The notes under the pieces were generated by a model that saw only the letters and a program-made list of their open reading frames with translations, made no database searches and was not told the origin of the DNA. DNA of 60,565 nt, taken from Acidobacteriota bacterium. Its GTDB lineage: Bacteria; Acidobacteriota; Vicinamibacteria; Vicinamibacterales; UBA2999. Position 1 is the first letter of the stretch. The number at the start of each line of letters is the position of its first letter. Of the stretch, positions 11,752 to 50,713 are shown in pieces. The stretch lies in NCBI GenBank assembly GCA_030650395.1, contig JAUSDY010000119.1:1-60565 (forward strand), in the 5' to 3' direction. The position numbers were made by a program, and so were the translations under genes.

Positions 11752-12117
11752 TCAGCGGCCGGCGAGGCCTTCGGTCAGCTCAATCCGCGTGCCCGCCGGA
11801 TCGAGGACGAAAGCGATCTTCAGGCCAATACCGGGGACATCGCGGAATGGCGTGTCGAAGGTGACGCCATCAGCCGCCAGCTTCTTGCAGAACGCCTCGA
11901 GCCCTGTCACCTCGAAACCGATGTGATCGAGCGAGCGGCCTTTCGTCGCGGCCTGCGGCTGGTCGGTTTTCCGAAAACTGAAGGCGACGCCGGGCACGCT
12001 GGTGACGGACGCAGTCCCTTGCGTGGTCGTGGTCGCGCCGAAGTGTTTCACGTACCAGGCGCGCAGCGCGTCCGGATCGCTGGTAAAAAAGTGAACGTGA
12101 TAATGCTCCAAGGGCAC
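11752..12117 (-). CDS. VOC (glyoxalase/bleomycin-resistance fold) family protein
   Basis: A single VOC-type metalloenzyme-fold protein of about 121 aa. It opens with EHYHVHFFTSDPDALRAWYVKHFG and contains LDHIGFEV and a C-terminal FVLDPAGTRIELTEG strand-loop-strand, as expected for the fold, including putative metal ligands His (HYHVHFF, LDHIGF) and Glu (IELTEG). No ATG is present; GTG at 12117 is the most plausible start, with TTG codons just upstream as alternatives. The frame runs on upstream into unrelated sequence. Divergent from sixA-like 12169. The substrate is unknown. Confidence 0.78.
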   Translation of the reverse strand: MPLEHYHVHFFTSDPDALRAWYVKHFGATTTTQGTASVTSVPGVAFSFRKTDQPQAATKGRSLDHIGFEVTGLEAFCKKLAADGVTFDTPFRDVPGIGLKIAFVLDPAGTRIELTEGLAGR

Positions 12118-12168
12118 GGTCAAGCTGAGCGGGCGCAAGCATAGCGCGAGTCGTGAGCAGGTTCTAGG

Positions 12169-12660: not shown

Positions 12661-12699
12661 AAGGGGCTGGCCTGACGCACCCTGCCGAAGCGCGATCGG

Positions 12700-12728
12700 T
12701 TGACAACTTATCCGTAGCTCGGTATACA
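12700..12728 (+). promoter_or_regulatory. Sigma-70-type promoter for the large membrane protein gene
   Basis: TTGACA (12700-12705), a 17-bp spacer, then TATACA (12723-12728). Near-consensus. The predicted start is about 50 nt upstream of the ATG at 12786, so this gene would have a leader, unlike several neighbours. Confidence 0.7.
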
Positions 12729-12785
12729 TCGGGCCACACAACTCGAATTCGGCGGGCCAGTTCTGCCGATCACAGATCCACTCTG

Positions 12786-15197: not shown

Positions 15198-15358
15198 CGC
15201 TCGCGGCGGTGTCTAACAACAGCTGCACTCGACATTGCACGGCCTGTCGGCGGTCCAGCACAGAAGGCGCAGCCGGCTGCCGAAATCTGCAACGGACTAA
15301 TTCAGGCAGGTTTACATATACTCGCTCGTGTTGAGAGACGTGACTACAGGGGGCGCAC

Positions 15359-16234: not shown

Positions 16235-16250
16235 GGCCCTTTGCCGGGGG

Positions 16251-16275
16251 GGCCAAATCTCTTCGCGATTTGGCC
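16251..16275. terminator. 9-bp hairpin between convergent genes
   Basis: GGCCAAATC (16251-16259) pairs with GATTTGGCC (16267-16275) across TCTTCGC. It lies between the stops of the DLH gene (16234) and the ADOP gene (16279), so it could serve both directions. There is no U-tract. It may equally be an interspersed palindrome. Confidence 0.5.
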
Positions 16276-16278
16276 ACC

Positions 16279-18856
16279 TCACATCCTCATCGCGCGCGCT
16301 GGGTCGATCAGTGCGGCCCGTCGCGCCGGCAACCAACTGGCAGCCACGACCACCACCAGGAGCACGGCAACGGCCGTCACGAGCGTGACGGGATCCTGCG
16401 GTGCCACACCAAAGAGCAGCGTGCGCGCAAAACGGCTGCTGGCAGCCGCACCCACGATGCCGATCGTGCCGCCAGCGACGGCGAGCACCAGCGATTCCAT
16501 CACGATCGACCGTGCGACACGCCGCGGTGACGCCCCGAGCGCCATCCGCAGCGCAATCTCACGACGCCGTTGCACCACGGTGTAAGCGAGCAGGGCGTAG
16601 ACACCACCGGCCGCTGTGATCAGCCCTCCGACCGCGAAGAGCGTGATGAGCAGCATGGCAAACCGATCGAGCGGCACGGCATCGCCGAGCAGTTGGTCCA
16701 TCGTGGTCACCGAATGGACGGGTTGATCGGGTTCGACACGAAGCGCGGAGGCACGAGCCGTCTGGGCCACGGCCACGGGATCCAGGGTCGTCCGAGCGAT
16801 CACATTCAAGACGAGGTACGGGTTCTGCGAGTGCGGAATGAAAATCTCGGGCACCGGCTCACTTCGTGGCCCGTCGTGACGATCGTCACGCACCACGCCA
16901 ACCACTTCATAGGGATAGGGACCACGCTGGTAGTCGAGAATCAGGTTACGTCCAACCGGGTTGTCAGTGCCCCACGCGTTTCTCGCGAGCTTCTGATTGA
17001 TGATCACCACACCAGGACCGTCAGCGTCATCACCGTCCGTGAACTCGCGTCCAGCCATCACGGGAAGGCCCAACGTCGCGAAGTATCCAGGTGTCGCCAT
17101 CCGAATGCTGGCGTCCGACACCGTCTTGCCTTCAGGGCCCGCCTGCTCAGGCCAGTACGGCCGGGTGAAGTCGGAGCCGATCGTGCTCATTGGCAGGGTC
17201 GTGACCGCTGCCACGGACCGAATCGCGGGAACCTGGCGAAGTGACCTGAGCACGCGGCGGTAGTAATCGGTCGTCTGCGCGGGAGTGCGATAGCGCGCGG
17301 CATCAGGCGTGATGCGCAAGACGAGCAGGTTGCTCGTGTCGAAGCCCACATCCACTCGTCGTAACTCCGCGAATGTCCGGGCCAATAACCCGGCCCCGAC
17401 GAGCAACATCACGGCTGCGGCAATCTCGGCCACCACCAGTCCGGCGCGCAGCCGGCCAGAGGCGCTTGCCGACACGGCGACCCCGTCTTTGAGCGCGCCC
17501 GCAATCGGTGTGCGGCTGGCGCGAAAGGTCGGAACGGCGTTGCCGACAGCGGTGACCACGAGCGCGAGTACGGCAGCGAACGACGCGACTCGTGCGTTCA
17601 TGGCCACTTCGTGCAGGCGCGGAATGCCGGCGGGCGCTATTGACAGGGCGGCGTCCACCCACCACGCAGTGAGTACGATGGCGATGACCATCGTGACGAT
17701 CGCGCTCAACACGCTTTCTGCGATCAACGGTCGCGTGACGCGGCTGCCGCGGGCGCCGAGCGCCAGGCGAATCGCAATCTCCCTCGCGCGGCCGACACCA
17801 CGCGCGATGGCCAGACTGGCGACGTTGGCGCAGACCAGCAACAGCAGGCAACACATCGCCGCAAAGACGAGGAGGAGCTCCAGACGGCTCGTGCGTGCGA
17901 TTTCATCCGCGAGCGGAGATAGCCGAATACTCCAACCGGCGTTGGTGTCCGGATGCTCAGAAGCAATTCCGCTTGCCATTGTCTGCATCCGCGCCTCTAC
18001 GCCTTCGACGGACAGCCCTGCTTTCATCCGGCCAACGACGCGCAAAAACCGAGCGTCGCGGGGGGGGGGCCTGCGGAAAACGCGCGCCGCGGTACGACGT
18101 CCGCATATCCCACGGCGCCCAAAAGGCAGCGGTCGCGTCGGGCACCGCGAAGTCGTCGGGCATGACACCAATGACCTGCCAGTCGCGGCCTTCTATGGAG
18201 ACGGTCCGACCAACGACCTGTGGATCGGCGCCCAGGGTCCGCCATAGGCGAGAACTCAGAACGATGACCGGTTCGCCGCTGGACGCCTGCCGCGACGTGA
18301 TTGACGCCGCGCCTTCGAATTCGTCCGCATCGAACGTGCGCCCGAGCCGTGGTTGACGACGATAGACGTCGAAGAAACCGCGCGTGACGTGCACCCCGGC
18401 GATCGGCGTGCCGCCGTCGCCTGCCCGGAGGGTGGCCGAGACCGTCATCGCGGCGGTGATCGCATCGAACGCATCATTCCGAGCGACCCAGTCGAGGATA
18501 TTGCCCGGCGCCGCGCCCTCGCGGAGGCGATCCTGGCTGACATTCGATTCGAACATCATGACCAGCCGACCCGGCTGATCGTAGGGCAGCGGTCGAAGCA
18601 GCGCCGCGTCAACAAACGCGAAGAGTGTGGTCGTCGCCGCGACACCAAGTCCGAGGAGTAATGACATGCCGGCCGTGGCTCCCGGAGATCGAACGAGCGC
18701 CCGCAGTGCCTGTGCGAGATCGTGCCTGGCTCCGACGAAGACGAGATCCCAGAGCAGCGCGAACCAGGTCGTCACGAGAGGGACGCGCCCACGCGCGCGC
18801 GCCGTTTCAAGCAGTCGTTCGCCATCTTCGCGGATGACACGCCGATCACTCGTCAT
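16279..18856 (-). pseudogene. ADOP-type permease (duplicated FtsX/MacB), frameshifted at a 10-G tract
   Basis: Two overlapping minus-strand frames together make one ADOP permease of about 855 aa. The N-terminal frame starts at ATG 18856 (MTSDRRVIREDGE) with the first TM and MacB-PCD-like domain (MSLLLGLGVAATTTLFAFVD, ...DWQVIGVMPDDFAVPD). It runs into G10 on the plus strand (18060-18069; C10 in the gene), after which homology continues in the other frame (DARFLRVVGRMKAGLSVEGVEA) to the C-terminal YPARR-like end (WLPARRAALIDPARAMRM). The PadR gene overlaps its start by 4 nt. The lesion may be a sequencing error, a fixed mutation, or slippage-driven phase variation. Confidence 0.85.
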
Positions 18857-19221
18857 GCGCGAGCCGCCTTTCGCAACGCCCGGCTCGAGCGGGCGTGAGT
18901 GACAATCGCTTCGAGGCGCCGAACCTCGGCATCCAAGACACGCTTGCCGTGCGGCGTAAGCGCGAAGTAGCGACGCCGCTCGTCGTCTTGATCGGCGGCC
19001 GGCCGGTTATCCGACTCCGCAATAACGTCGGTCTTCTCGAGTTCCCGAAGTAGTCCGTACAGGCCTGCGGGCCAGAGGCGCACCTGGCCGTCCGTGCGCT
19101 CGGCGACCTCCTGCATGATGCTGTAGCCATGCCGGGGTCCATCTGCCACCGCCAACAGAATGTGGAGCACCTTCGGCTTGAGCGGCAACAGCCGGTCGAC
19201 GCTTCTCCACTTGTCTGGCAT
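18853..19221 (-). CDS. PadR-family transcriptional regulator
   Basis: 122 aa winged-helix repressor. LLPLKPKVLHILLAVADGPRHGYSIMQEV is the PadR N-terminal helix with the HGY motif (about residues 11-38), then LYGLLRELEKTDVIAES (recognition helix and wing) and the wing continuation RRYFALTPHGKRVLDAEVRRLE. The gene ends in an ATGA overlap with the ADOP permease, the standard PadR-ADOP operon of Acidobacteriota; the regulator usually controls its own operon in response to a small molecule. AT-rich sequence with a minus-strand TATACT lies between it and the divergent SAP gene (about 19261-19285) and is a likely operator region. Confidence 0.92.
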   Translation of the reverse strand: MPDKWRSVDRLLPLKPKVLHILLAVADGPRHGYSIMQEVAERTDGQVRLWPAGLYGLLRELEKTDVIAESDNRPAADQDDERRRYFALTPHGKRVLDAEVRRLEAIVTHARSSRALRKAARA

Positions 19222-28891: not shown

Positions 28892-29296
28892 ATGAAGCGC
28901 GGGCTCGCGGCTCTGTTGATCACGATCGCAGTGCTGGCCTCCGGCCTTTCGACCGCGGCACATCATTCCTTCGCGGCGCAATACGATCGCGAGAAGCCAA
29001 TCACCTTAAAGGGCGCCGTCACGAAGATGGAATGGGCGAACCCGCACATCTACTTCTACATTGACGTGGCGGAAACCGGCGGCGCCACGGCGAATTGGGC
29101 CATCGAGGGTGGCGCGCCGAACACGCTGTATCGCGCCGGGTGGCGAAAAGATTCCACCAAGGCCGGAGACCTCGTCACCGTCAGCGGCTTCCTCGCCCGC
29201 GATGGATCGAAGCTGGTCAACATGCAGAGCGCGGTGCTGGCCGACGGCCGCAACCTGTTTGTGGGAACGCAAACCTATTACCAGAAAGGCCGCTGA
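28892..29296 (+). CDS. DUF6152-family secreted protein
   Basis: 134 aa. A signal peptide (LAALLITIAVLASGLSTAAH) is followed by the hallmark HHSFAAQYDREKPITLKGAV and TKMEWANPHIYFYIDVAE, characteristic of the DUF6152 family. It is a beta-rich small domain, OB-like by eye, of unknown function. It ends in an ATGA overlap with the next gene, showing coupling. A GGAGGGG ribosome site lies about 7 nt before the ATG. Close pairing of this domain with the family of the next gene recurs in Acidobacteriota in my experience. Confidence 0.88.
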   Translation: MKRGLAALLITIAVLASGLSTAAHHSFAAQYDREKPITLKGAVTKMEWANPHIYFYIDVAETGGATANWAIEGGAPNTLYRAGWRKDSTKAGDLVTVSGFLARDGSKLVNMQSAVLADGRNLFVGTQTYYQKGR

Positions 29297-30144: not shown

Positions 30145-30170
30145 GTAGCGCGGAACTTTAGTTCCGCGAG
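30145..30170. repeat. TTTA-loop palindrome, intergenic copy
   Basis: GTAG is followed by stem CGCGGAAC (30149-30156), loop TTTA and GTTCCGCG (30161-30168). The 25 bp 30145-30169 are identical to 35462-35486, which lies inside a coding sequence. It sits between a gene remnant and the stop of the TSUP gene. Confidence 0.92.
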
Positions 30171-31026: not shown

Positions 31027-32553
31027 ATGACGATCACATGTTTCGTTGCCTGGCGGCGCGTCCTCGCGGCCGCACTACTGGCCGCGCCGCTCGCCGCATG
31101 GACCCAACCCTCGCCACTCTCGCGCCACCTCCTGATCGTCGTTGATGGCCTGCGGCCCGACTACGTCACGGCTGCCGTGATGCCCAACCTGGCGGCGCTC
31201 GGACGCCGGGGCGTGGTCTTTGCGCGGCACCACTCCGTCTATCCCACGGTCACGCGCGTCAACGCGTCGTCCATTTCCACAGGTGCCTACCCGGAACGCC
31301 ACGGCCTGATGGGCAACAGCGTCTTCTTCCCCAAAGTCGACCCGGCAAAGTTCCTCGACACGTCCAACCGCGGCGACCTCCTGAAGATCGCGGCGGCCGA
31401 AGGACAGCTGCTGACGGCGCCCACGCTTGCTCAATCGCTGCAGGCCGCGGGCAAGAAGATGTTGGTCGTCAGCTCGGGCTCGGGCGGGTCGGCGTTTCTC
31501 AACAACCACACGGTGTCGGGCGGCGCGATTCTGCATCCGCAGTTCACGCTCCCGGAATCACTCGGCGCAGAGATGAAGGCGCTTGGTCCTGTCCCGGCCG
31601 AAGACGGGCCGGCGGGCGCGCTCGATCGCTATGCCGTCGACGCGTTCCTCAAGGTCGGTCTCAAGCAGGATCCCGCCGTGACCGTGCTGTGGCTCGGCGC
31701 CCTCGACTCCACCGCGCACGACGCAGGCATCGGCGCTCCGGAGACGGTGGCGATTCTCAGGCACGTCGACCGCGAGATCAAACGGCTGGAAAACGGGCTC
31801 AAGGCCGCCGGCCTGTTCGAGACGTACGACATCTGGATCACATCCGACCATGGCTTCTCCACGTATACGGGCGGGGTCGATCTGTCCGCGGTGCTGAAGC
31901 CGCACGCACGGACGATGGCGGATGGCTCGCCGCGGATCGTGGCCGGGGGCGGCGCGATCTACGTGCGCGATGGCGACCAGGCGGCGGTTTCGGCGATCGT
32001 GGCCGCGCTGCAGGCGAAGGCCGGCGTCGGCGCGATCTTCACGCGTGCCGCGCAGCCCGGGTCGCTCACCGGCAGCGTGCCGGGCTCGCTGTCGTTCGAG
32101 GCGGCGCGCTGGAGCCACGATCGATCCGCGCAGATCCTGTTCTCGCCGGACTGGACCGACGCCGCGAATGCGCACGGGTGGCGGGGCACCACTGCGTCGG
32201 GTGGCACGGCCGGCCACGGCAGCTCGAGCCCGTGGGACATTCACAACACGCTGATCGCCGCCGGCCCCGACCTCAAACGAGGGATTACGATCCAAGCCCC
32301 CAGCGCGAACGTCGACTTTGCTCCGACCTTCCTGAAGCTGTTGAATCTCACCGTCCCCGCCACGGTGCAGGGACGGCCGCTCGACGAAGCCCTGGCTCGT
32401 GGCGCCGCGTTGGGCGCCGGCGCGGTGCGGACGATGGAGCATGTCGCGCGGACCGCGGACAGCTCGTATACCGTCACCGGACTGTTCTCGGTGCTGACCA
32501 CGGGCGGACGCGAGTACCGGTACCTCGATGGCACGAGGGTCGTGAGAAACTAG
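31027..32553 (+). CDS. Alkaline phosphatase-superfamily protein (nucleotide pyrophosphatase/phosphodiesterase type), exported
   Basis: 508 aa with a signal peptide (VLAAALLAAPLAAWTQ). The metal and nucleophile motifs follow the NPP pattern: VVDGLRPDYV (first Asp), YPTVTRVNASSISTGAYPERHG (Thr nucleophile region), DSTAHDAG (Asp/His) and TSDHGFS (Asp-His). These hydrolyse phosphodiester or pyrophosphate bonds with two zinc ions in the periplasm. The substrate is unknown. It is followed by a 65-bp gap holding a palindrome that abuts the ThDP gene start. Confidence 0.92.
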   Translation: MTITCFVAWRRVLAAALLAAPLAAWTQPSPLSRHLLIVVDGLRPDYVTAAVMPNLAALGRRGVVFARHHSVYPTVTRVNASSISTGAYPERHGLMGNSVFFPKVDPAKFLDTSNRGDLLKIAAAEGQLLTAPTLAQSLQAAGKKMLVVSSGSGGSAFLNNHTVSGGAILHPQFTLPESLGAEMKALGPVPAEDGPAGALDRYAVDAFLKVGLKQDPAVTVLWLGALDSTAHDAGIGAPETVAILRHVDREIKRLENGLKAAGLFETYDIWITSDHGFSTYTGGVDLSAVLKPHARTMADGSPRIVAGGGAIYVRDGDQAAVSAIVAALQAKAGVGAIFTRAAQPGSLTGSVPGSLSFEAARWSHDRSAQILFSPDWTDAANAHGWRGTTASGGTAGHGSSSPWDIHNTLIAAGPDLKRGITIQAPSANVDFAPTFLKLLNLTVPATVQGRPLDEALARGAALGAGAVRTMEHVARTADSSYTVTGLFSVLTTGGREYRYLDGTRVVRN

Positions 32554-32577
32554 GACAAAAGCCCTGGGGGAACAAGG

Positions 32578-32618
32578 TGTAGAGCGTCTACGTCTAAAGC
32601 CGTAGACCGCCTACATCT
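32578..32618. repeat. TTTA-loop palindrome directly abutting the ThDP gene start
   Basis: GTCTACGTC (32586-32594), loop TAAA and GCCGTAGAC (32599-32607) pair with one mismatch; outer TGTAG (32578) and CTACA (32611-32615) extend the stem. On the minus strand it has the same TTTA-loop plan as the others. Four nt separate it from the ATG. A similar element abuts the PadR start at 36877. Confidence 0.8.
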
Positions 32619-34433
32619 ATGGCCCAGACCCTCACACAACTGAGCGTGGCGCCGCCGCCGGAAGCCGTCCATTCCGCCACCGTCGTGTCGGCGCTCGTCG
32701 ACATCTTCCTCCGGCTCGGCGTCAGAGAAGCGTTCGGCGTGTCCGGTGGCGCGATGGCGTCGCTGTGGGACGCGATGTCGTCAAGCCCGCTTGGCGTCTA
32801 TCACTTCCGTCACGAGAGCGGGGCCGCGTTCGCCGCCATCGAGGCCGGCTTCGCAAGCGGGCGGCCGACGGTGCTGTTCACGACCACGGGTCCCGGACTC
32901 ACCAATGCATTAACCGGCATTATCGCGGCTCGCGAGGAAGGCGCTCGCGTCATCGTGGTCTCCGCGCATACGTCTGCGTCATCGCGAGGGCGTTTTGCGA
33001 TCCAGGAAACGTCGCGCACCACGTTGCCGCCGTCGTTGTACGAAGGCGGACGACCGTTTCATTTCGCCGCGGTCGTCGACGATCCTACGCAGCTCTCCGA
33101 GGTCGAGCGTAGACTGGCGACCGGCCTCGGGCGTCGTGGCGGATTCGTGGCCCACCTGGCGCTCGACACCGCGGTGCAGCGAGCACCTTCCGCCTTCGCT
33201 GGGGCTACGGCGGACAAGGCGGTGGTCACCACCTTCGCCAAGGCTTCGGTGGTCAAGAAGGAGTCCGCCCCTCCGTGCGTGGACACGCCGGTGCCCGCCC
33301 AGATCGCCGCCTGCGTCGATGCTCTGCGTGATGGCCCGTTTGCGATCTGGATCGGCTACGGCGCGCGCGATGCCGCTGCCGAGATCGCGACGCTGGCGCG
33401 GCGCATGGGCGCGCCGGTGATGTGTTCACCGCGCGGCAAGGGCATCTTCCCGGAAGACGATCCGCTGTTCGTCGGTGTAACCGGTCTCGCCGGGCACGCA
33501 TCGGTGATGCGTTATCTGGAGGACTTCAAGCCGCGGCGCGTGTTGGTACTCGGTTCGCGACTGGGGGAGCCGACCTCGTTCTGGGATCGCCGTTTCGTCG
33601 CGCCCGAGGGGTTCGTTCACGTCGATGTCGATCCAGAGGTGCCGGGTGTCGCATACAGCACCGCGTCGACGCTGGCCGTCATCGGCGATGTCGGAGCCAC
33701 ATTGCGGGCGGTGCTCGGGCAACTCCAACCGATGAATGAGCGTTTCCGTAGGGCACCCCTTCATGGGGTGCCGCTGCCGGAGCTGCCGCGTCCGCGGATC
33801 GATCGGGTGCAGCTGCGCAGCGACGGCCTGGTGCGGCCCGAAGCGTTGATGGACGCGCTGCAAGACTGGGTCGTCGATCGCAGCAACGCAACCGTGCTGT
33901 CGGAGTCGGGCAACTCGTTTTTGTGGACGACGCATCGGTTGCGATTTCCGGCGCCGCATCGCTACCGCACCAGCACGGGGTTCGGATCCATGGGCCACGC
34001 CGCCGGCGGCGTCGTCGGTGCTGCATTGGCGACGAATCGTCGCGCGGTCGCAGTAGTCGGCGACGGGGCGTTGCTGATGACCAACGAGATCAATAGCGCC
34101 GTCAAATTCGGCGCGCGCGCAGTGTGGGTGGTCCTCAACGACGGCCGCTATGGCATGTGCGAGCAGGGCATGGACACGCTCGGGCTGTCGGCCGACGCCG
34201 GGATTCCGCAAGTCGACTTCGCTGCCTTCGCCCGCGCGCAGGGCGCCCGCGCGACGCGTGTCGACCACGAGGTGCAGCTTGACGCGGCCCTGGCGGAGGC
34301 CATGACAGCAGACGGGCCGTTTGTGATCGACGTGCGCATCGACCCACGGTGCAAGGCGCCGGCGTCCTTGCGCAACGCCACGCTCGCCGGCCCACGCACA
34401 GGGCCTCGCGCGCTGACGTTCCCGGTTTCGTAA
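32619..34433 (+). CDS. Thiamine-diphosphate-dependent enzyme (acetolactate synthase/benzoylformate decarboxylase-like)
   Basis: 604 aa with the three-domain ThDP layout: an N-terminal Pyr domain with catalytic Glu66 (FRHESGAAFAA) and TTGPGLTNALTGI, a central domain, and a C-terminal PP domain with the cofactor motif GDG (481-483) through N in VVLNDGRYG (about 506). It would cleave or join 2-oxo acids. Two repeats are carried in frame: about residues 191-219 (PSAFAGATADKAVVTTFAKA and a following stretch) and about 377-385. The fused SRPBCC-P450 gene begins 14 nt after the stop, so they form one transcription unit, suggesting a biosynthetic rather than a housekeeping role. No small regulatory subunit of acetolactate synthase is present. 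Confidence 0.88.
   Translation: MAQTLTQLSVAPPPEAVHSATVVSALVDIFLRLGVREAFGVSGGAMASLWDAMSSSPLGVYHFRHESGAAFAAIEAGFASGRPTVLFTTTGPGLTNALTGIIAAREEGARVIVVSAHTSASSRGRFAIQETSRTTLPPSLYEGGRPFHFAAVVDDPTQLSEVERRLATGLGRRGGFVAHLALDTAVQRAPSAFAGATADKAVVTTFAKASVVKKESAPPCVDTPVPAQIAACVDALRDGPFAIWIGYGARDAAAEIATLARRMGAPVMCSPRGKGIFPEDDPLFVGVTGLAGHASVMRYLEDFKPRRVLVLGSRLGEPTSFWDRRFVAPEGFVHVDVDPEVPGVAYSTASTLAVIGDVGATLRAVLGQLQPMNERFRRAPLHGVPLPELPRPRIDRVQLRSDGLVRPEALMDALQDWVVDRSNATVLSESGNSFLWTTHRLRFPAPHRYRTSTGFGSMGHAAGGVVGAALATNRRAVAVVGDGALLMTNEINSAVKFGARAVWVVLNDGRYGMCEQGMDTLGLSADAGIPQVDFAAFARAQGARATRVDHEVQLDAALAEAMTADGPFVIDVRIDPRCKAPASLRNATLAGPRTGPRALTFPVS
33190..33275. repeat. Palindromic repeat pair inserted in frame in the ThDP gene
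   Basis: CCGCCTT (33190-33196) pairs with AAGGCGG (33216-33222) around CGCTGGGGCTACGGCGGAC. A second palindrome follows (CCACCTTCGCC and GGCTTCGGTGG, about 33229-33252). The first encodes PSAFAGATADK, matching PSTFAPGASADK in the P450 and PSTFAPIASADK in the permease. Confidence 0.8.
33748..33772. repeat. GTAG palindrome with TTCAT loop inside the ThDP gene
   Basis: GTAG, then GGCACCCC (33752-33759), loop TTCAT, and GGGGTGCC (33765-33772): 8-bp perfect stem. In frame between the central and C-terminal domains (encodes RAPLHGVPLP). A third distinct stem on the same plan. Confidence 0.8.
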
Positions 34434-34447
34434 AGACCCGCCCGGGC

Positions 34448-36697
34448 ATGGAAAACAACACCTTCGCCACCACCATCTACGCCGCGACCCCGGCGGACCG
34501 CGCGTTCGCGTACTTACGTCGTTTGCAGAACCTCGACGAGTGGACCCTCGGCAGCCGCATGGTCACGCGGATAGACGAGGACACATTCATGGGCACGGCG
34601 TCTGGCTACCAGTCGATGCTGTGCTATCACGTGCGGACGCTAGCGCATCCCTGCCCTGACCCTTCGACAGGCTCAGGGTCATCCCGAGCGGAGTCGAGGG
34701 ATGAGCGAAGTCGAAGGGCGCGGTTTGCGGCGATCGAGTGGCAGTGCGGCTACCGCTATCGCGAGTACTTCAAGCAATATCCCGTGTTCGTCTTTCCGTC
34801 GAAGTATGCGGATCCGCGTCGCGACGAAGACGGCAGCTACATCCACTGGGTGAGCGTGATCGATCCGGCGCGACGCACCGAGATGATCATGCAAGGCATC
34901 GCGGCGGTGCATCACTACGAAGGCCGGGGCCTCAAGGCCGCGCTCGAGCGCGGTGAGGGTCTGACACAGCCGGCGAAGGGGAGTGTGTCCGTGCTCTCGG
35001 ACACGATGTGGGTTGATGCGCCGATCGAGTCGGCTCGCGAGCTGCTTGCCGATCGACACGCGCTCAACAGTTGGGCGCCGATGTTCCGCGCCGTCGACGC
35101 CGCGGCGGGTTCGTTCGTCGACGAGTACGAGCGGCGCGTCCAAGTCGAGTTTGCGGCTTGCGAGTTGGGCGACTACGTGTTGGTCGAGCAGGACTACGTC
35201 TACCCGGATCTCGGCGCCGTGCAGCGCTGCCCGATCGTCCTGGTGCCGAGCGCCCGCGCGTTCGGTCCCGAGGCGCCGGGTTTCCTGCTCCACCGGATCG
35301 CATTCGTCGCAGGCGACGGGTCGCAGACGTTCGGCCGCACCACGACACACGAGCTGACCGCAGAAAGTATGGCAATCAAGCGCATGCTCGAGGCGCGCGC
35401 GGGCAACGTGGCCAGCTTCGCGCGTGGCATGAGCTATGAGCCGGATGCCACGAGAATCGCTGTAGCGCGGAACTTTAGTTCCGCGATCGTGGCGGCGTCG
35501 CCGGATATCTTCGCTCCGGAATTCGCCGCGGACCCCTATCCCGTTTATCGCCGGATGCGCGACGAATATCCGTTGTACTTTCATGCGCCGACACGAGCGT
35601 GGATCTTGAGCCGGTATGAGGATGTTCGCCTCGCGCTGACCAACCCGTCGTTCACGACCAGGAGCTATGCCGCGCAGACCGAGCCCTTGCTCGGCAAGAC
35701 GCTCATCCAACTCGATGGCCGCGAGCACGCGCTTCAGCGCGGGTTGCTGACGCCGTCGTTCAGCGCGACGAGCATTCGCGAGCGGTTTTCGGATCTGATT
35801 GGCAACACGATCGATGAGCTGATCGCCGCGGTCGCCTCGCACGGCTGCGCGGATCTCGTGAAGGATCTGGTCGTGCATCTTCCCGTTCGCATCATGGCGG
35901 GGCTGCTCGGATTGCCCGCCGCCGATCGCGATCGGTTCCGCGGGTGGTACACGGCCCTGATTCAAGGCGCGCTCAACCTCACCGGCGATCCTGCGGTCGC
36001 GGTTGCGGCTACCACTGCGCGCGACGAATTGGACGCGTACCTGCGTCCGCTCATCGCCGCTCGCCGCGAGAGGCCGGGCACCGATCTGATCTCGACCCTC
36101 GCGACCACCACGGTCGAAAGCGATCGGCTGAGCGACGAACAGATCGTCCGCTTCGCGATGCTGATGGTGTTCGCCGGAGGTGAAACCACGGAGAAGGGCC
36201 TCTCGACGACCCTGCGAAATCTGCTGGCACATCCCGACGCCCTGGCGGCGGTGCGACAGGACCGGTCGCTGCTGCCGCGCGCGATCGCCGAGTCGTTCCG
36301 CTACACCGCGCCGACGCACATGGTGCCGCGCCAGACGCGCGAAGAGATTCAGGTGTCTGGTGGGATGCTGCCGGCCGGCGCCGAAGTGATGTGCTTCCTC
36401 GGCTCGGCCAATCGCGACGAGCGCCGCTTCGCCGATCCCGATCGCTTCGATCTGCACCGCCCCGAGTCCGACCCTGAACGGGCCTTCACGGGGCAGGCCG
36501 CGCACCTCGCGTTTGGCGGAGGCCGGCACTTCTGTCTCGGCGCCGTACTGTCCCGCTTCGAAATAGAGGTCGCGGTGAATCGCATTCTTGATGCGCTGCC
36601 GGACTTGAGGCTCGCTGACGCCGCCCCGCCTCCCGATACGGGCTTGTTTCTGCGCGGCCCGGCCACGCTTCCCGTTCATTTCTCGCCACAGGGATGA
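34448..36697 (+). CDS. SRPBCC-SRPBCC-cytochrome P450 fusion protein
   Basis: 749 aa. Residues about 1-175 and 180-335 each look like an SRPBCC/START-type helix-grip domain (MENNTFATTIYAATPADRAF with HHYEGRGLKAALER; then VSVLSDTMWVDAPIESAREL with VQVEFAACELGDYVLVEQDY), the arrangement of didomain aromatase/cyclases. Residues about 353-749 are a complete P450: I-helix FAGGETTEKG (about 575), ExxR in ESFRYTAP, haem loop FGGGRHFCLG with Cys696. An in-frame repeat lies in the first SRPBCC domain (about 69-91), and a TTTA-loop hairpin encodes part of the joint between SRPBCC-2 and P450. ATG 34448 is chosen because the domain starts there. The upstream ThDP enzyme is co-transcribed. An oxidative tailoring role on a bound small molecule is inferred. 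Confidence 0.88.
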   Translation: MENNTFATTIYAATPADRAFAYLRRLQNLDEWTLGSRMVTRIDEDTFMGTASGYQSMLCYHVRTLAHPCPDPSTGSGSSRAESRDERSRRARFAAIEWQCGYRYREYFKQYPVFVFPSKYADPRRDEDGSYIHWVSVIDPARRTEMIMQGIAAVHHYEGRGLKAALERGEGLTQPAKGSVSVLSDTMWVDAPIESARELLADRHALNSWAPMFRAVDAAAGSFVDEYERRVQVEFAACELGDYVLVEQDYVYPDLGAVQRCPIVLVPSARAFGPEAPGFLLHRIAFVAGDGSQTFGRTTTHELTAESMAIKRMLEARAGNVASFARGMSYEPDATRIAVARNFSSAIVAASPDIFAPEFAADPYPVYRRMRDEYPLYFHAPTRAWILSRYEDVRLALTNPSFTTRSYAAQTEPLLGKTLIQLDGREHALQRGLLTPSFSATSIRERFSDLIGNTIDELIAAVASHGCADLVKDLVVHLPVRIMAGLLGLPAADRDRFRGWYTALIQGALNLTGDPAVAVAATTARDELDAYLRPLIAARRERPGTDLISTLATTTVESDRLSDEQIVRFAMLMVFAGGETTEKGLSTTLRNLLAHPDALAAVRQDRSLLPRAIAESFRYTAPTHMVPRQTREEIQVSGGMLPAGAEVMCFLGSANRDERRFADPDRFDLHRPESDPERAFTGQAAHLAFGGGRHFCLGAVLSRFEIEVAVNRILDALPDLRLADAAPPPDTGLFLRGPATLPVHFSPQG
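34651..34719. repeat. CCCTTCGAC composite palindrome inserted in frame in the first SRPBCC domain
   Basis: CCCTTCGACAGGCTCAGGG (34660-34678) and GTCGAAGGG (34710-34718) bracket an inner palindrome, CATCCCGAGC with GTCGAGGGATG. It encodes DPSTGSGSSRAESRDERSRR, a charged insertion with no SRPBCC counterpart. The same class appears at 44341-44380. Confidence 0.8.
35462..35486. repeat. TTTA-loop palindrome at the SRPBCC-P450 domain joint
   Basis: Identical over 25 bp to 30145-30169: GTAG, CGCGGAAC, TTTA, GTTCCGCG, A. It encodes VARNFSSA, between the last SRPBCC helix and the P450 start. Confidence 0.92.
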
Positions 36698-36820
36698 TCG
36701 GGGTCAGGTCAAGAAAATCACTGTTTGGGATGATTGGGGACAGGTCAAGGGTGTCGGGGCGGCTGACCTGTCACCGATCATCCCTTTGTGTGATTTTCTC
36801 GACCTGACCCCAATCATCCC
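36691..36820. repeat. Nested inverted repeat (BIME/REP-like) of about 130 bp
   Basis: The outer arms are 36691-36721 (GGGATGATCGGGGTCAGGTC then AAGAAAATCAC) and 36790-36820 (GTGATTTTCTCGACCTGACC then CCAATCATCCC), nearly perfect over 31 bp. The inner arms, 36728-36748 and 36763-36783, are related to the outer ones (GGGATGATTGGGGACAGGTCA and its imperfect complement). The outer left arm begins within the P450 gene's last codons. Sequences of this type are often associated with REP-associated (Y1) transposases; none is encoded here. Confidence 0.88.
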
Positions 36821-36833
36821 TCCGCGGAACAAG

Positions 36834-36876
36834 CCGTAGATGTCCTACGTCTAAAAGCCGTAGTGTGACTACACCT
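36834..36876. repeat. Palindrome abutting the PadR start, related to the one at 32578
   Basis: CTACGTC, TAAAA, GCCGTAG (36845-36863) with outer GTAG/CTAC. The 19 bp 36869-36887 that include the start codon differ from 32611-32629 at only two positions, so the element may supply both the upstream region and the first codons (MAKT here, MAQT there). Confidence 0.75.
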
Positions 36877-37245
36877 ATGGCCAAGACGCCCGACGACAAG
36901 GATGAAAAACGCTTGGAGATCCTGCAGGGCACGCTTGACATGCTCATCCTGCGGACCCTGCTGTGGGGACCCCAGCACGGCCATGGCATCGGCCAGGCCA
37001 TCGCGTCGCAATCCGACGACCTGCTCAAGGTCGAAACCGGCTCGCTCTACCCGGCGTTGCACCGCATCGAAAAGCGCGGCTGGCTGAAATCCGAGTGGGG
37101 CGTAAGCGAGGCCAACCAGAAAGCAAAGTATTACCGGCTGACGGCGGCGGGGAAGGCCCAGCTGTCGCGCGAGCGGGATCGGTGGTCGCAGCTCGTGGCT
37201 GTGATGGGACGCATCATGAACCCGGCACAGGCGGGCAAGGAATAG
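36877..37245 (+). CDS. PadR-family transcriptional regulator
   Basis: 122 aa. The PadR winged helix is seen in LEILQGTLDMLILRTLLWGP followed by QHGHGIGQAI, then SLYPALHRIEKRGWLKSEWG (recognition helix) and AKYYRLTAAGKAQLSRERDRW (wing and dimer helix). I prefer ATG 36877; a GTG at 36865 is in frame but lies in the palindromic repeat. It precedes the ADOP permease by 3 nt and presumably regulates that operon. Any operator must lie in or next to the repeat-rich 36.7-36.88 kb region. Confidence 0.93.
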   Translation: MAKTPDDKDEKRLEILQGTLDMLILRTLLWGPQHGHGIGQAIASQSDDLLKVETGSLYPALHRIEKRGWLKSEWGVSEANQKAKYYRLTAAGKAQLSRERDRWSQLVAVMGRIMNPAQAGKE

Positions 37246-37248: not shown

Positions 37249-39870
37249 ATGCGACCCGACGAGCGTGACCTCGACGAAGAGATCCGCGGCCATCTGGCGA
37301 TCAGCGTCGCGCAGCGAATCGAACGCGGTGAGAATCCGGAAACCGCCCGCCTGAATGCGCTGCGCGAATTCGGCTACGTGCCGGCGATGCGCGAGTCGAT
37401 GCGGCGCGTCTGGTACAGCCGCTGGTTCGACGCGACCGCCGCGCTCGGGCAGGACATCCGGGTGGCCTTCCGATCGCTCAAGCGTGCCAAGGGCCTTGCG
37501 CTCACCGTGATCGTGACGCTCGCGCTCGGCATCGGCGCCAACGCCGCGATCTTCAGCGTCGTGCGCGGTGTGTTGCTGCGCCCGCTCGCCAATCGCGACG
37601 AAGCGCGATTGATTTACATCCGGCAGAGCGCGCCGGGCATCGCTGCGGCGAACATGACGTTCTCGGTGCCGGAGGTGCGGGACTTCAAATCGCGGATCAC
37701 GACGATCAGCGCGTTTGGAGATTTTTCGACCGTCGGCTTCACGATGGTCGGCGTCGGCGAGCCGCGCATCGTGCAAGCCGGCGTCGTCAGCGGCTCGTTC
37801 TTCGAAGTGATGGGTCTCCGCCCGGTGCTCGGCCGCCTGTTGAATGGCGGCGATGACGGGCTGAACGCGCCCGGCGCGGCCGTGCTCACGCATCGCTTCT
37901 GGACAAAATCACTCAACAGCGATCCGTCGGTGATCGGCAGGACCATCAACCTCGGTCCGCGCAGCGCCACGATAATCGGCGTGCTCGAGCCGTCGGTGCC
38001 GTACCCGGCCGACACCGAGATCATCGCGAACATCGTGACCAGCCCGCATCACATGGGCGCGACGATGGTCGGCATGCGGACGCACCGCATGACCGAGCTG
38101 TTCGGCCGCCTCGCGCCGGGCGCCACGCTCAAATCGGCGCGCGCAGAGCTCACCGCCGTGCACGCGTCCATGCTGAGCGAGCACCCCGAGTCGTACCCGG
38201 CGAAGGCCGACATGCAGCTCAGCGCCACGCCGCTGCGCGATCAGATCACCGCGCCGGCGCGGACGGTTCTGCTGGTGCTGCTCGCCGCCGCCGGCGTCGT
38301 GTTCATCATCGCCTGTTCGAACGTCGCCAATTTGATTCTCGCGCGATCGGTGCGCCGCGAGGGTGAGCTGTGGGTGCGCGCCGCGCTCGGTGCCGGCCCG
38401 GGTGCGTTACGCCGGACGCTGCTGGCCGAGAGCCTCGTGCTCTGCGGAGCGGGCGCGGTGTTGGGCGTGCTGCTGGCGCGTCCGTTGGTGGCGATCGTCG
38501 CCCGCTACGCGTCGCGTTTCTCGGTGCATGCGCTCGACATCACCGTGGACGGCAGCGTGCTCTGGGTGGGCGTCGCATTGGCGATGGCCGCCGCGGTGCT
38601 GCTGGCCTTCGTCCCTCGGCTGCCATCCCCGCATGCGCCGACCGGGCTGGGGCTGGCCAGCGGCGGCGTCCGGATCACGCCCGCCACCAATCGCCGCCTG
38701 CGCGTGTTCGCGACGGCGCAGATCGCGCTCTCGTTCGTGCTGCTCGCGGGCGCCGGCATGCTGGTCGCCACGCTCATCGCGCTGCAGTCGGCGAGCACCG
38801 GTCTCGAGACGCGGCGCGTGCTCGCCCTCGACGTGCCCTCAGCAACCGGCGACATGAGCGACAAGTCGATCGCCTTCTACCAGGAATTGACGCGGCGTGT
38901 CGGCGAGCTGCCCGGTGTGGACGGCGTCGCCGTCGGCAGCTTCGTGCCGTGGCGCGATGCCGGCAGCTTCGGTCCCGGCATCCCCTTCAGCGTCGAAGGC
39001 TATACACCCGAGGCCGGCGAAGATAACCCGCGTGCGCGGTTCCGGATTGTCTCGCCGGGTTTCTTCCCCGTCATGGGCTTGCCGCTCGTGGCCGGCCGTA
39101 ATTTCACGACGGAGGATCGCCGCGGCAACGACCGGGTCGTGATTGTCAGCCAGAGCGTCGCGCAGCGGCTGTTCGCCAACGGCGATGCCCTCAACCGGCA
39201 GATGTCGTGGAACGACCCGTACATGGGCAACCAGCAATACCGCATCGTCGGCGTCGTGGCCGACGTGGACGACGAGAACATCGTCGCCAAGCCGGCTCTC
39301 ACGGTCTATCACTCCTTTCAGCAGATCGGTGTCGGTGGCCGCGTGTTCGTGCGCACGGCGCGCGATCCGTACGCGCTGGTGATGCCGATCAGACAGATCG
39401 TCCGCGAGCTGTCGCCGAACCAGCCAGTGGAGCGGGCCGCCACGCTCGAGGACGTGCGCGCAGAAGTGCTGTCGCCGGATCGCCTCAACGCATTCGTGAT
39501 TTCCGGATTCGCGGGCGTGGCGGTCCTGATCGCCGTCGTCGGCGTGGCAGGCGTGCTGGCGTTCTCGGTGAGCGCGCGCGTTCGTGAGTTCGGCGTCAGG
39601 CTCGCGATTGGCTCGACGCCGCAGAGCCTGTTGCTCGGCGTGCTGTCGGAAGGCGCCGTGATCGTGTCGATCGGGATCATCGCGGGCGCCGTCTGCGGTT
39701 ATGCATTCTCGGGCGTGGCGTCGCATTATCTCGCCAGCTTCCGGCTGCCGGGCCTGCTGCCGATGCTTGGCGCGGCCGCGGTCCTGGCGAGCGCTGCTGT
39801 GCTGGCGTCGCTGATGCCTGCCGCGCGCGCCTCGCGCGTCGACGTGTTGCAGGCGCTTCGATCAGAGTAG
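37249..39870 (+). CDS. ADOP-type permease (duplicated FtsX/MacB), intact
   Basis: 873 aa. The N-terminal cytoplasmic ADOP segment (DERDLDEEIRGHLAISVAQRIERGENPETAR) is followed by TM1 (LALTVIVTLALGIGANAAIFSVV), a periplasmic MacB-PCD domain, a three-TM FtsX block (about 340-470), then a second copy of TM, PCD and FtsX (from RVFATAQIALSFVLLAGAGM) ending in MPAARASRVDVLQALRSE. No ATPase is encoded beside it, which is why these are called orphan permeases. It is intact where the paralogue at 16279-18856 is broken. Transcribed with PadR. Confidence 0.94.
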   Translation: MRPDERDLDEEIRGHLAISVAQRIERGENPETARLNALREFGYVPAMRESMRRVWYSRWFDATAALGQDIRVAFRSLKRAKGLALTVIVTLALGIGANAAIFSVVRGVLLRPLANRDEARLIYIRQSAPGIAAANMTFSVPEVRDFKSRITTISAFGDFSTVGFTMVGVGEPRIVQAGVVSGSFFEVMGLRPVLGRLLNGGDDGLNAPGAAVLTHRFWTKSLNSDPSVIGRTINLGPRSATIIGVLEPSVPYPADTEIIANIVTSPHHMGATMVGMRTHRMTELFGRLAPGATLKSARAELTAVHASMLSEHPESYPAKADMQLSATPLRDQITAPARTVLLVLLAAAGVVFIIACSNVANLILARSVRREGELWVRAALGAGPGALRRTLLAESLVLCGAGAVLGVLLARPLVAIVARYASRFSVHALDITVDGSVLWVGVALAMAAAVLLAFVPRLPSPHAPTGLGLASGGVRITPATNRRLRVFATAQIALSFVLLAGAGMLVATLIALQSASTGLETRRVLALDVPSATGDMSDKSIAFYQELTRRVGELPGVDGVAVGSFVPWRDAGSFGPGIPFSVEGYTPEAGEDNPRARFRIVSPGFFPVMGLPLVAGRNFTTEDRRGNDRVVIVSQSVAQRLFANGDALNRQMSWNDPYMGNQQYRIVGVVADVDDENIVAKPALTVYHSFQQIGVGGRVFVRTARDPYALVMPIRQIVRELSPNQPVERAATLEDVRAEVLSPDRLNAFVISGFAGVAVLIAVVGVAGVLAFSVSARVREFGVRLAIGSTPQSLLLGVLSEGAVIVSIGIIAGAVCGYAFSGVASHYLASFRLPGLLPMLGAAAVLASAAVLASLMPAARASRVDVLQALRSE

Positions 39871-41831: not shown

Positions 41832-44619
41832 TCAGTTCGCGGAGACACGGCGCTTCAGCTCCTCCACCCAGTTCAACACGATGTTGATCTTGGGGCGTGC
41901 CGCTTCCGCGCTTCGACCCTGGCCAGAGGCGACCCGAGCGCCACTCATGAGAAACCGCTGACCGTCAGCGGTCACGGCATAAGTGGCCCGGGGCGACCCT
42001 CCTGGATTGCCCGGTCCGCGAAAGAGCTCGGCCGGCGGCCCGACGGTCAACGCCGGCGATGTGGCGACTCGCACCACCATCATCATGTCGTCGCTCAAAC
42101 GCCGATAGAACAATTCACCGCTTCGCGCCCAGGCGGGTTCTCGGGCTCCGCCGACCGACACGGGTGTCTGTGGTCCCGGGCCGGGAAAGGGCCGGATCAC
42201 CAGTTCACTCTGACCAGACACCGTGTCAGCGTAGGCCACGTAGCGGCCGTCAGGAGAGAAGACCGCATCCGTTTCGTTCGCCGGGCCGGCGCGGAACGGC
42301 TGGGGGGCGTGGCTCGCTCCCTCGGCGGCGGGGATCATCAGCAGATCGCTATTGCCGTTTGGAAGATGGTGATGCGCAGCCAGCACTCGGCCATCCGGCG
42401 TGAACGAGTCCACGTGGAGTTGACCGTCCAGCTCCGTGAGCTGGGTGGCGCGATCGCTCCCGTCGAGCGGTTGGATCCAGATGTTCATCAGACCGCCCTT
42501 GCCTCGGCGCGACGATGAGTACGCCACTGCCTGTTCGCCCGGCACCCAGCTGGCATACGAGCCGGCACTGCGGTCAGAGGTCACGCGCGTTTCGCGCCCG
42601 GTGGCCAAGTCGTAGATGCGCACGTCGCCCTGCGCCACGACCAGCGCGCGCCGGTCGTCGGACGACAAACGAGGTGTACTGAACGTGCTGGGCGCGATAG
42701 CCGCAACGGGTTCGACTTTCCCGTCCCGGTTCACCCAGACAAGAGAGCTACCGGAGGCAGTCTGGCCCCCGGGCACGTAGAACAGCGCGCCGTCAAGAGA
42801 CACGTCGTAGTTGGCTATTCCAATGATTCCAGATCCGACCCCACGGCGAATCCCCTCGAGGAGCGAGACCGCTCCGCCAACCACTTGCAAGCCGTTGGCG
42901 TCGAAACGGACGCCGAACAATCCATCGTTCACGGTATACAGCAGATGGCCGGTCCGGATGTATCGTGCATCGGCGCCGCCCTGTATCAGCACCTTACGTT
43001 GGCCGGACCGGAGGGACTGCACGACGACATTGGAGTCCGGCATGGACACGGCATTACCTACCGCCACGGCCCGGGAGACACTGAACAGCATGGCGTCACG
43101 ATCTGGCAGCAGCTGAGGGCCGGTGAACTGTTCGCTGTCGCCTGCGGGAATGGCCACTTCCGGAGTGCCCCCCTGGGCCGCCACGCGCCAGATGCCGCCA
43201 GGGGCCGCGAAAAAGATCGTGTCGTCTGCGGTCCACGTGACGCCGTACGGGTTGGCCGTCGTCGCGATCACGACCGGTGCGCCGCCCGCGATCGCTAGAC
43301 GTTTCAGCTGGCCGCCCTGAAAGTAACCCACCGATTGCCCGTCCGGTGAGAAAAACGGATTGGTGACGGGCTCCGTACTGGCCATCAGCTGTCGATCCGC
43401 AAGCTCGTCCATCGCGCGCAGATACAGGCCATCCGCGGCGTTGTAGACGAATCGCCGGCCGTCAGGCGACGCGGCGATCGGCGAACGATTACCACCCCTG
43501 AACTGGAGATCGCCGGGCAGCACGTACTCGAAACGCGTCACGGGCCGAAGTACGGATCCCTGTGTGCTCCAACCGACTACGCCCACGAGCAGGCCCGCGG
43601 CAATGGCGGCCACGGTTGACGGAAGCACTCGACGCCAAAGCGGCGGCGTCGTGAGAGGCGTCACGACCGTCGGCGAGAGGGTGGCCGCCTCGAACGCCCC
43701 CTCCATCGCGAGACGCACGTCGCCGATATCGCGCAATCGTTGCCGCGGATCCTTGTGCAGGCATCGCCCCAGGCAAGCGCGGATTGACGCTGGCAGATCT
43801 GGCGGTAAGGCGTTCAGATCCGGATCCGATTTCATCACCGCCGCCAGCGTGAGCGACACGTCCTCGCCATCGAACGCGCGCCTGCCGGTCAGCATTTCGT
43901 ACAGCACGGCGCCGAAGGCCCAGATGTCCGTGCGCTTGTCCACGGTCCGGCCGCGCGCCTGCTCCGGTGACATGTAGGCCGCCGTGCCAAGGATGATCCC
44001 CATGCCGGTCATCGCGGGCGTAGTGATGGTGGGGGACTGGCTGAGTCCGTCCGCAATCCGTGCGGCGGAGCCGGAAGGCTCGGTGAGCTTCGCCAATCCA
44101 AAGTCCAACACTTTCACGGTCCCGTCGGGCCTGACCTTGATGTTCGCGGGCTTCAGATCGCGGTGGATGATGCCTTGTTCGTGCGCCGCTTCAAGGGCCT
44201 CGGCGATTTGCTTCGCGATGGGGAGAGCCTCGGCCACCGGGAGCCCGTGCTCGGCTGAGCCTATAGCGAGTCGCCGGCCATCGATCATCTCCGCAAGCGT
44301 CGGACCCTCCACGAGCTCCATCACGAGGGCCTTCATGCCCGCCTGCCCTGAGCCTGCCTGCCCTGAGCCTGTCGAAGGGTCTGTCTCTTCGAGGCCGTAG
44401 ATGGCGGCGATGTGGGGGTGATTCAGCGCGGCCAGCACTTCGGCTTCGCGCTGAAAGCGCGCGAGCCGTTCGGGGTCTCCCGCGAGCGTCGTGGGCAGGA
44501 CCTTGATCGCGACCTGCCGTTTCAGCTTCGTGTCGGTCGCGCGGTAGACCCATGCCGCCTGCGCCGAGGGCCGAGACGATCTCGTACGAGCCGAGGCGCG
44601 CACCGGGGAGGAGAGCCAT
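41832..44619 (-). CDS. Membrane Ser/Thr kinase with PD40 propeller (kinase 1), frameshifted in the glycine-rich loop
   Basis: ATG 44619 opens [20 protein letters not shown] then GGMG; the kinase then continues in another frame as [20 protein letters not shown]. Compared with kinase 2 (GGMGEVYRA) five bases are missing (near 44554-44558), breaking the G-x-G-x-x-G-E-V loop. Downstream everything is open: [21 protein letters not shown]-region MSPEQARG, a TM helix ([16 protein letters not shown]) and PD40 blades to the C terminus. The same-frame ORF alone starts at ATG 44603. A 15-bp tandem repeat (44341-44380) encodes [10 protein letters not shown] in the N lobe. A -10-like TATAAT lies at 44631-44636. 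If the shift is real the kinase is dead. Confidence 0.85.
44341..44380. repeat. 15-bp tandem repeat, CCCTTCGAC class, in frame in kinase 1
   Basis: GCCTGCCCTGAGCCT occurs at 44341-44355 and 44356-44370, followed by GTCGAAGGGTC. On the coding strand it encodes [15 protein letters not shown] between two N-lobe strands; kinase 2 has no such insertion at that point. Confidence 0.85.
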
Positions 44620-50335: not shown

Positions 50336-50713
50336 CTACCGTCGCGTGCCCTTCCGCGCCTTCTCAGCCGTCAAGCGCCACGATACCGACAGCAGGTCCC
50401 GCAGCGCGTCACGATCGATCCGCGACAGGCGCACCAGCACCAGTGGATAGCGCCGGTAGTAATCCGTCAGGTAATAGGTCTCGGGCGCATCCTCGAGGAG
50501 AAGCGCGCGTTCGTCCACGTCGGCCCTGACCACGAGCGTGTCTGGTTCCGCGGAGGGGTGAGTGGCGACGCCGGCCATGAAACTGCCGCCGCGCTTCAGC
50601 ATCGGCGAGCCGTCGTATTTCGTCACGGCCTCAACGTCTGGAAGCGCAAGGCCCACGGTCCTGACGATTTCGAAGCCGTGAGCCGGAGCCTGCTGTGCTG
50701 CCGATCGTTTCAT
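50336..50713 (-). CDS. MmcQ/YjbR-family protein
   Basis: 125 aa. CyaY-like double-wing fold family: GLALPDVEAVTKYDGSPMLK (central motif), FMAGVATHPSAEPDTLVVRA, YYLTDYYRRYPLVLVRLSRI and the C-terminal helix LRDLLSVSWRLTAEKA. Members are often annotated as DNA-binding but with little direct proof. Its start overlaps the stop of the amidohydrolase gene by ATGA, so it is the second gene of that operon. Confidence 0.88.
   Translation of the reverse strand: MKRSAAQQAPAHGFEIVRTVGLALPDVEAVTKYDGSPMLKRGGSFMAGVATHPSAEPDTLVVRADVDERALLLEDAPETYYLTDYYRRYPLVLVRLSRIDRDALRDLLSVSWRLTAEKARKGTRR

Follow-up and report, generated by a model that had tools for sequence, protein, structure and literature searches.

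Scytonemin biosynthesis in cyanobacteria involves ScyA, a thiamine diphosphate (ThDP) enzyme that couples indole-3-pyruvate with p-hydroxyphenylpyruvate, and ScyC, which cyclizes and decarboxylates the product (PMC4870267, PMC6282210). As described in these sources, Escherichia coli carrying scyABC accumulates the scytonemin monomer, and in Nostoc the ebo genes are implicated in export and the periplasmic protein ScyE in dimerization. For scyABC, [M+H]+ values of 278.12 for the ketone and 276.10 for the monomer have been reported (PMC4870267). Variants of the scy cluster within cyanobacteria are treated in PMC6939163. ScyA-like proteins of Acidobacteria and Myxococcales have also been reported, and the same account gives ScyC only for cyanobacteria and Methylocaldum marinum (PMC9796282). 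Here we describe a locus on contig JAUSDY010000119.1 of an Acidobacteriota bacterium (assembly GCA_030650395.1), in which a ScyA-type enzyme is encoded directly before a ScyC-type protein fused to a cytochrome P450. The 60,565 nucleotides analyzed, called the window below, are part of a 5.41-Mb genome in 180 contigs that is 98.4% complete. Among the texts that the open-licence PMC library returned, no report turned up of ScyC in Acidobacteria or of a ScyC-P450 fusion.

An earlier note on this DNA had described a ThDP enzyme next to one open reading frame (ORF) that encodes two helix-grip domains and a complete P450, an architecture on which profiles, structure model and motifs agree. The note had considered the arrangement possibly uncharacterized. 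This holds for the fusion to a P450 and for the acidobacterial home, which are new, but not for the enzyme pair itself, which profiles and trees make recognizable as scytonemin ScyA and ScyC. With a probability of roughly 0.6, we propose that the locus is a two-gene unit for a scytonemin-type indole alkaloid, in which ScyA and ScyC would make a tricyclic ketone that the P450 would oxidize.

Family placement of the ThDP enzyme and the helix-grip didomain

Both ORFs were confirmed on the forward strand. The ThDP enzyme (32619-34433, 604 aa) is complete, with the N-terminal, middle and C-terminal TPP domains all above their Pfam cut-offs, and its best NCBIfam model is scytonemin ScyA (NF035923, 738 bits); by this kinship it would join two 2-oxo acids through acyloin coupling. 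Relatives were collected by scanning GTDB contigs with a ScyA alignment, which confirmed at least 89 stretches, and the best 80 of these form the set of loci (L-numbers) used here. Among the matches listed, the best is JACQGI010000025 (L013), a locus from an acidobacterial metagenome-assembled genome, whose ScyA reaches 911 bits (cut-off 1020). Of 251 columns that hardly vary among 35 ScyC-linked cyanobacterial ScyAs, the window enzyme retains 208.

In a tree of 86 ScyA rows, built by a quick method with three paralogs from the same genome as outgroup, the window protein pairs with that of L013 (Shimodaira-Hasegawa-type support, SH-aLRT, 97), and the two sit inside a ScyC-linked clade of 37 rows (SH-aLRT 98). 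A ScyC gene flanks 36 of these 37; the remaining row is probably L022, whose contig of 4.1 kb holds hardly any sequence beyond ScyA. The window and L013 also carry the C-terminal [TS]FP tail of ScyC-linked ScyAs; of the 41 other cyanobacterial ScyA-like rows, at least 80% show a gap there. Family and placement together identify the enzyme as ScyA type.

The second gene encodes a protein of 749 aa (34448-36697, +), and the best NCBIfam model for its first half is ScyC (NF035924, 380-383.9 bits). The profile is matched over its full length, as positions 1-67 and 66-312 of 312, and the two segments (34451-34651 and 34715-35443) lie on either side of a repeat-derived insertion. The corresponding scores are 369 bits in a second species of the same genus (G387, the sister species below, whose contig starts inside ScyA) and 566 bits in L013, the latter above the curated cut-off of 400. 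In a midpoint-rooted tree of 37 ScyC rows, the window and the sister species pair with support of 100/100, and L013 falls between this pair and the 34 cyanobacterial rows. By family and by placement, then, the didomain is of the ScyC type.

Structure prediction agrees with the two-domain architecture. The AlphaFold2 model of the ScyC half (mean predicted local distance difference test score, pLDDT, 86.7; predicted template-modeling score, pTM, 0.87) contains two helix-grip domains of the SRPBCC/Bet v1-like kind, at residues 1-171 (34448-34960) and 179-322 (34982-35413), so that both halves are predicted to adopt the fold on which the earlier note had made its proposal depend. The best Foldseek matches to the ScyC half are the di-domain aromatase/cyclases StfQ (E 1.6e-10) and BexL (E 1.1e-9). 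With VIA-align, domain 1 is most similar to the carbazole synthase CqsB2 (6ipv; Z 16.3, 2.4 Å over 144 residues), and domain 2 matches PYL10 (Z 13.4). A family missing from either list was not taken as excluded.

The start of the fusion gene most likely lies at ATG 34448, because the N-terminus conserved in the ScyC family (MENNTF) begins there. The ORF tool had placed it at GTG 34349, which would make the two genes overlap, and we dropped that start. From the ATG, the genes are separated by 14 nt without overlap and likely form one operon.

The fused P450

The P450 domain (35498-36697) is full-length. Its best NCBIfam model is TIGR04538 (CypX-type) at 296 bits, below the curated cut-off of 500, as is the separate P450 of L013 (314 bits), to which it is 61% identical. 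The closest solved relative is CypX (3nc3, 256.7 bits). The translation contains FGGGRHFC (36512-36535), ESFR, which fits ExxR, and AGGETT, and we take these to be intact P450 motifs.

CypX aromatizes a cyclodipeptide, and other cyclodipeptide-associated P450s are described as hydroxylating or coupling (dimerizing) Trp-containing cyclodipeptides (PMC7954767). Because relatives of the CypX type catalyze such varied reactions, the fused P450 may carry out a hydroxylation, a desaturation or a dimerization. A second complete P450 ORF lies more than 20 kb away on the opposite strand (10103-11701; PF00067, 260 bits).

A tblastn search with the window P450 (E <= 1e-4; flanks of up to 10 kb, some of them cut) matched only L013 and L017 among 35 ScyC loci. 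The latter, from Nostoc foliaceum FACHB-393 (9890-18010), is a second scy-type cluster with ScyA, ScyB, ScyC and a ScyE-family gene, in which a P450 (best NCBIfam TIGR04538, 215 bits) lies downstream of ScyC and is followed by a methyltransferase-type gene; it is possibly a cluster for a decorated scytonemin analog.

Reality, distribution and origin of the fusion

The earlier note had named an assembly or annotation artifact as one outcome that would undo its proposal. The same fused ORF, 81% identical and with a different linker, is present in the sister species, where it again accompanies ScyA (partial in that contig). Open frames are free of stops over 804 codons in the window and 811 in the sister genome. 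The ratio of nonsynonymous to synonymous substitution rates (dN/dS) between the two is 0.20 for the ScyC half, 0.12 for the P450 half and 0.11 for ScyA, the last over 191 codons only; both halves of the fusion and the compared part of ScyA are under purifying selection. Since a second member of the genus carries the fusion with another linker, and since selection acts on both halves, the fusion is real and an assembly artifact is ruled out.

ScyC was found in 3 of 193 genomes of the class (the window genome, the sister species and G301, where the position and score of ScyC equal those in the genome of L013), in 2 of the 9 listed genomes of the genus, and in 1 of 297 genomes of a phylum-wide sample, namely the window genome. 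A protein search for ScyC gave no match in plasmids and none in viral contigs. Among the best 80 ScyA loci, ScyC follows ScyA in 35, and none is present within the available DNA of the other 45, 5 of which hold less than 3.5 kb after ScyA. All 35 of these ScyCs are stand-alone proteins of 315-337 aa. A cyanobacterial sample gave 14 ScyC matches in 13 of 386 genomes, likewise stand-alone, with open frames of 319-335.

The gene order in L013 is aminotransferase, ScyA, ScyC, P450; the aminotransferase gene immediately precedes ScyA, and ScyC and P450 are separate genes that overlap by ATGA. The order ScyA-ScyC-P450 is common to three acidobacterial genomes, of which that of L013 is the most distant, with ScyA partial in the sister species. 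ScyA and ScyC are spaced by at least 1,078 nt, which leaves room for ScyB, in 33 of 34 cyanobacterial ScyC loci, compared with 108 nt in L013 and 14 nt in the window. The cyanobacterial exception is L050 (Cylindrospermum sp. FACHB-282, 2279-6725), where ScyC directly follows ScyA without ScyB between them and is in turn followed by a gene of the RPE65 family (carotenoid-oxygenase-type), which makes it a further ScyA/ScyC set that departs from the standard. On the simplest account, the linked trio of ScyA, ScyC and P450 predates the fusion, which arose in the lineage of the window.

The joint itself suggests how this may have happened. The linker (35438-35497) contains the palindrome GCGGAACTTTAGTTCCGC at 35467-35484. 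Counted across the genome, it occurs 70 times in exact form (36 + 34), as against 0 for a reversed control. The linker of the sister species holds the same palindrome with one base changed, plus other repeat-like sequence. We infer that two neighboring genes were joined through the repeat. This is a clear case of a dispersed palindrome sitting exactly where two adjacent genes became one protein.

The in-frame insertion of about 63 nt that interrupts the profile match in domain 1 (34652-34714) is also repeat-derived. Its dispersal is less evident than for the palindrome at the joint, since a 19-nt part recurs in just 4 exact copies genome-wide. The corresponding stretch of the sister species is shorter. 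The inserted loop is predicted to be disordered (pLDDT < 50 at residues 72-89). Short palindromic repeats occur in the window at 30150-30167 and 44361-44379 as well as at these two in-gene places, where they are in frame in the fusion, and the sister species has repeat-like sequence of other lengths at both. Such in-gene repeats resemble Rickettsia palindromic elements. Directly after the P450, positions 36698-36830 hold a long inverted repeat (GATGATTGGGGACAGGTCAAG type, by eye), perhaps the remnant of a mobile element.

A proposed pathway and its alternatives

In the pathway that we favor, indole-3-pyruvate would come from an aminotransferase encoded elsewhere in the genome, in place of ScyB. 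ScyA would join it to p-hydroxyphenylpyruvate, or the two enzymes' substrates would be close analogs of these acids, giving a labile beta-keto acid that the ScyC part would cyclize and decarboxylate, with a tricyclic ketone as the product. This ketone might then pass to the fused P450, whose oxidation of it in the cytoplasm would replace the late cyanobacterial steps of ebo-dependent export and dimerization by ScyE, and the neighboring PadR regulator may control expression. The ScyA and ScyC reactions are drawn by analogy with the cyanobacterial enzymes, and the P450 reaction, any channeling between the domains and the control by PadR are guesses. The order of steps is the one that the earlier note had guessed (carboligation by the ThDP enzyme, cyclization by the helix-grip domains and oxidation by the P450), and it fits what the sequences suggest.

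Several observations weigh against this proposal. The window ScyA scores far below the curated equivalog cut-off (738 versus 1020 bits), and the window ScyC falls slightly short of its own, reaching 395.4 bits even when the repeat is removed. At 10 positions that distinguish the ScyA groups, the window has the residue of the ScyC-linked group at 5 and that of the other group at 3. Its proteins have long branches in both trees. In ScyC, just 97 of the 129 columns that are near-invariant among cyanobacteria are kept. A Pfam scan of 46 window ORFs (45 listed ORFs and one at 28892-29296) gave neither a ferredoxin-type redox partner nor an aminotransferase. Finally, the structure model of the whole fusion is poor (pLDDT 68, pTM 0.50) and lends no support to a particular domain arrangement or to channeling.

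Because positions conserved within the ScyA and ScyC groups are changed (43 of 251 ScyA columns and 32 of 129 ScyC columns), the substrates in the window may differ from those of scytonemin biosynthesis. The same enzyme logic could act on other aryl-pyruvates, or on an indole acid together with a non-aromatic 2-oxo acid, to give a product unrelated to the scytonemin monomer. The long branches fit such a shift, as does the comparison with L013, where only 23 of 251 ScyA columns and 9 of 129 ScyC columns are changed. However, the window ScyA lies inside the ScyC-linked clade and shares its [TS]FP tail, and we regard other substrates as a serious but clearly less probable explanation. More doubtful is an extension of the favored pathway in which the P450 couples two ScyC products, or performs an oxidation that leads there, while still in the cytoplasm. 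Provided that the 2-oxo acids are available, a dimeric pigment resembling scytonemin would then need no more than two genes in Acidobacteria, and the periplasmic route of ebo and ScyE would have been replaced convergently; we think this unlikely.

A further reading sees the fusion as a decaying gene, in which repeats inserted into ScyC and into the linker are marks of lost function in the genus. The two in-frame repeat-derived stretches in the window copy and the presence of ScyC in just 2 of 9 genomes of the genus could be taken in this sense, but the stop-free frames in both species, the low dN/dS values for all three parts, the P450 motifs and the position of the insertion in a predicted disordered loop make decay very improbable. 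Still less credence is due to the idea of an aromatase/cyclase from type II polyketide biosynthesis that is joined to a P450 and acts on a polyketide. The earlier note had assigned the didomain to the aromatase/cyclase type, which is right insofar as StfQ and BexL have the closest folds in the Foldseek search, but the sequence family is ScyC, matched full length, and a search of PDB sequences with the ScyC profile gave nothing at E <= 1. Linkage to ScyA speaks against a polyketide substrate as well. The note's remark that no polyketide synthase is nearby is borne out, as no polyketide synthase family occurs among the 46 ORFs, and with the specific ScyC match this led us to reject the polyketide reading. 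Because the pair is of the ScyA/ScyC type, the expected precursors are aromatic 2-oxo acids that arise in the metabolism of Trp and Tyr, rather than a polyketide.

Regulation and neighboring genes

The region upstream of ScyA (32569-32618), a putative promoter and operator, is a near-copy of the region upstream of a PadR regulator gene that follows the fusion. It contains the dyad core CTACGTCTAAAGCCGTAG at 32588-32605, which ends 13 nt before the ScyA start codon, and the same core lies at 36845-36863 in the PadR upstream region (36827-36876). The pattern CTACGTCTAAAN(1-3)CGTAG with zero mismatches has exactly two sites in the 5.41-Mb genome, before ScyA and before PadR, even though another PadR gene lies in the window (18853-19221). 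In global alignments, the 60 nt upstream of ScyA score 24 against the upstream sequence of the window PadR and 30 against that of the PadR in the sister species, and the best of 498 controls scores 2. The dyad core is absent from L013.

The PadR gene (36877-37245, +) matches PF03551 and TIGR03433 (padR_acidobact; 144.8 bits from a longer ORF start at 36865, cut-off 101.8). Because ScyA and PadR share their upstream sequences, the adjacent regulator probably controls the ScyA operon. It adjoins a gene for a MacB/FtsX-type permease of 873 aa (37249-39870, +; PF12704 and PF02687), and in the sister species a PadR gene and then a permease gene likewise follow the fusion. The permease may be a transport partner that exports the product, but this role stays speculative: the window has another PadR-permease set (16279-19221), and such sets are therefore not peculiar to the locus.

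We weighed whether a phosphodiesterase gene upstream of ScyA (31027-32553) might be an ebo-like partner, since EboE is described as a protein of the phosphodiesterase type. We dropped this candidate: L013 has an aminotransferase gene in that place, and the matches of the window gene are to broad families only. Elsewhere in the window, ARAGORN calls a tRNA-Arg at 51856-51948 (+) inside an amidohydrolase ORF on the opposite strand (50710-52059), a call that may be false.

Comparison with known systems

The locus resembles the scytonemin clusters scyABC(DEF) in that relatives of ScyA and ScyC are adjacent in a likely operon and are placed by their trees next to the cyanobacterial proteins. In contrast to those clusters, the window has no close ScyB, no linked ScyD, ScyE or ScyF and no linked genes for Trp or Tyr supply; its ScyC is fused to a P450, and its host is not a cyanobacterium. 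The best ScyB match in the window genome reaches 74.4 bits (cut-off 600), versus 647 and 681 bits in a Nostoc control. A search of the same genome for the ScyE family gave no match on the contig of the window, and no ScyD or ScyE gene is linked to the pair. A broad ScyE-family match, with its neighbors, occurs on another contig (C2) at 94.3 bits (cut-off 80), where the Nostoc values are 376-403 bits; such broad matches occur in 5 of 14 control genomes and exceed the cut-off in 2. Because the scores of ScyA and ScyC lie under their cut-offs, and because ScyB and linked ScyD or ScyE were sought and not found at the levels given, the locus is not filed as a scytonemin pathway.

Methylocaldum marinum has the sole non-cyanobacterial ScyC reported in PMC9796282 and is comparable in this respect, but it differs in having ScyB, and the main text of that paper does not mention a P450. 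L013 shares the order ScyA-ScyC-P450 with the window and differs in its separate ScyC and P450 genes, its upstream aminotransferase gene and its lack of the PadR-type core. Two loci on cyanobacterial plasmids, L011 (14917-17783) and L012 (11761-14774), have a ScyA-like ThDP gene directly before one annotated as 3-oxoacyl-ACP (acyl carrier protein) synthase III. The stretches retrieved contain no ScyC match, and the two loci apparently represent a different type of pathway. For the P450, the family that includes CypX (CYP134A1) and the P450s associated with cyclodipeptide synthases is the closest, from which the window protein differs by its score (296 bits, cut-off 500) and by having ScyC as its partner in place of a cyclodipeptide synthase.

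The Streptomyces Cqs and Nzs pathways offer another comparison. Like the pathway proposed for the window, they combine a ThDP enzyme that acts on indole-3-pyruvate with a Bet v1-like cyclase (CqsB2), and the Nzs pathway has a late P450 hydroxylase where the window likewise carries a P450 (PMC7466098). As described there, CqsB2 acts on an intermediate derived from indole-3-pyruvate, and its pathway also comprises an aminotransferase, a ThDP enzyme and a KASIII-like enzyme. These systems differ from the window in their need for the KASIII-like enzyme and an acyl-ACP; CqsB2 functions as a dimer, and the search of PDB sequences with the ScyC profile did not bring it up. No ketosynthase or KASIII-like family was found in the 46 window ORFs, to which this search was confined. 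CqsB2 may be regarded as a parallel in chemistry, in which the ring is closed differently.

A ScyA/ScyC pair that looks functional in Acidobacteriota extends scytonemin-type chemistry beyond cyanobacteria, and the acidobacterial proteins are possible outgroups for dating the scytonemin pathway. A late oxidation becomes accessible through the fused P450, a soluble and genetically simple handle. Set beside the known systems, what is new here is the acidobacterial setting, the fact that neither a close ScyB nor a linked ScyD or ScyE is present, and the fusion of ScyC to a P450.

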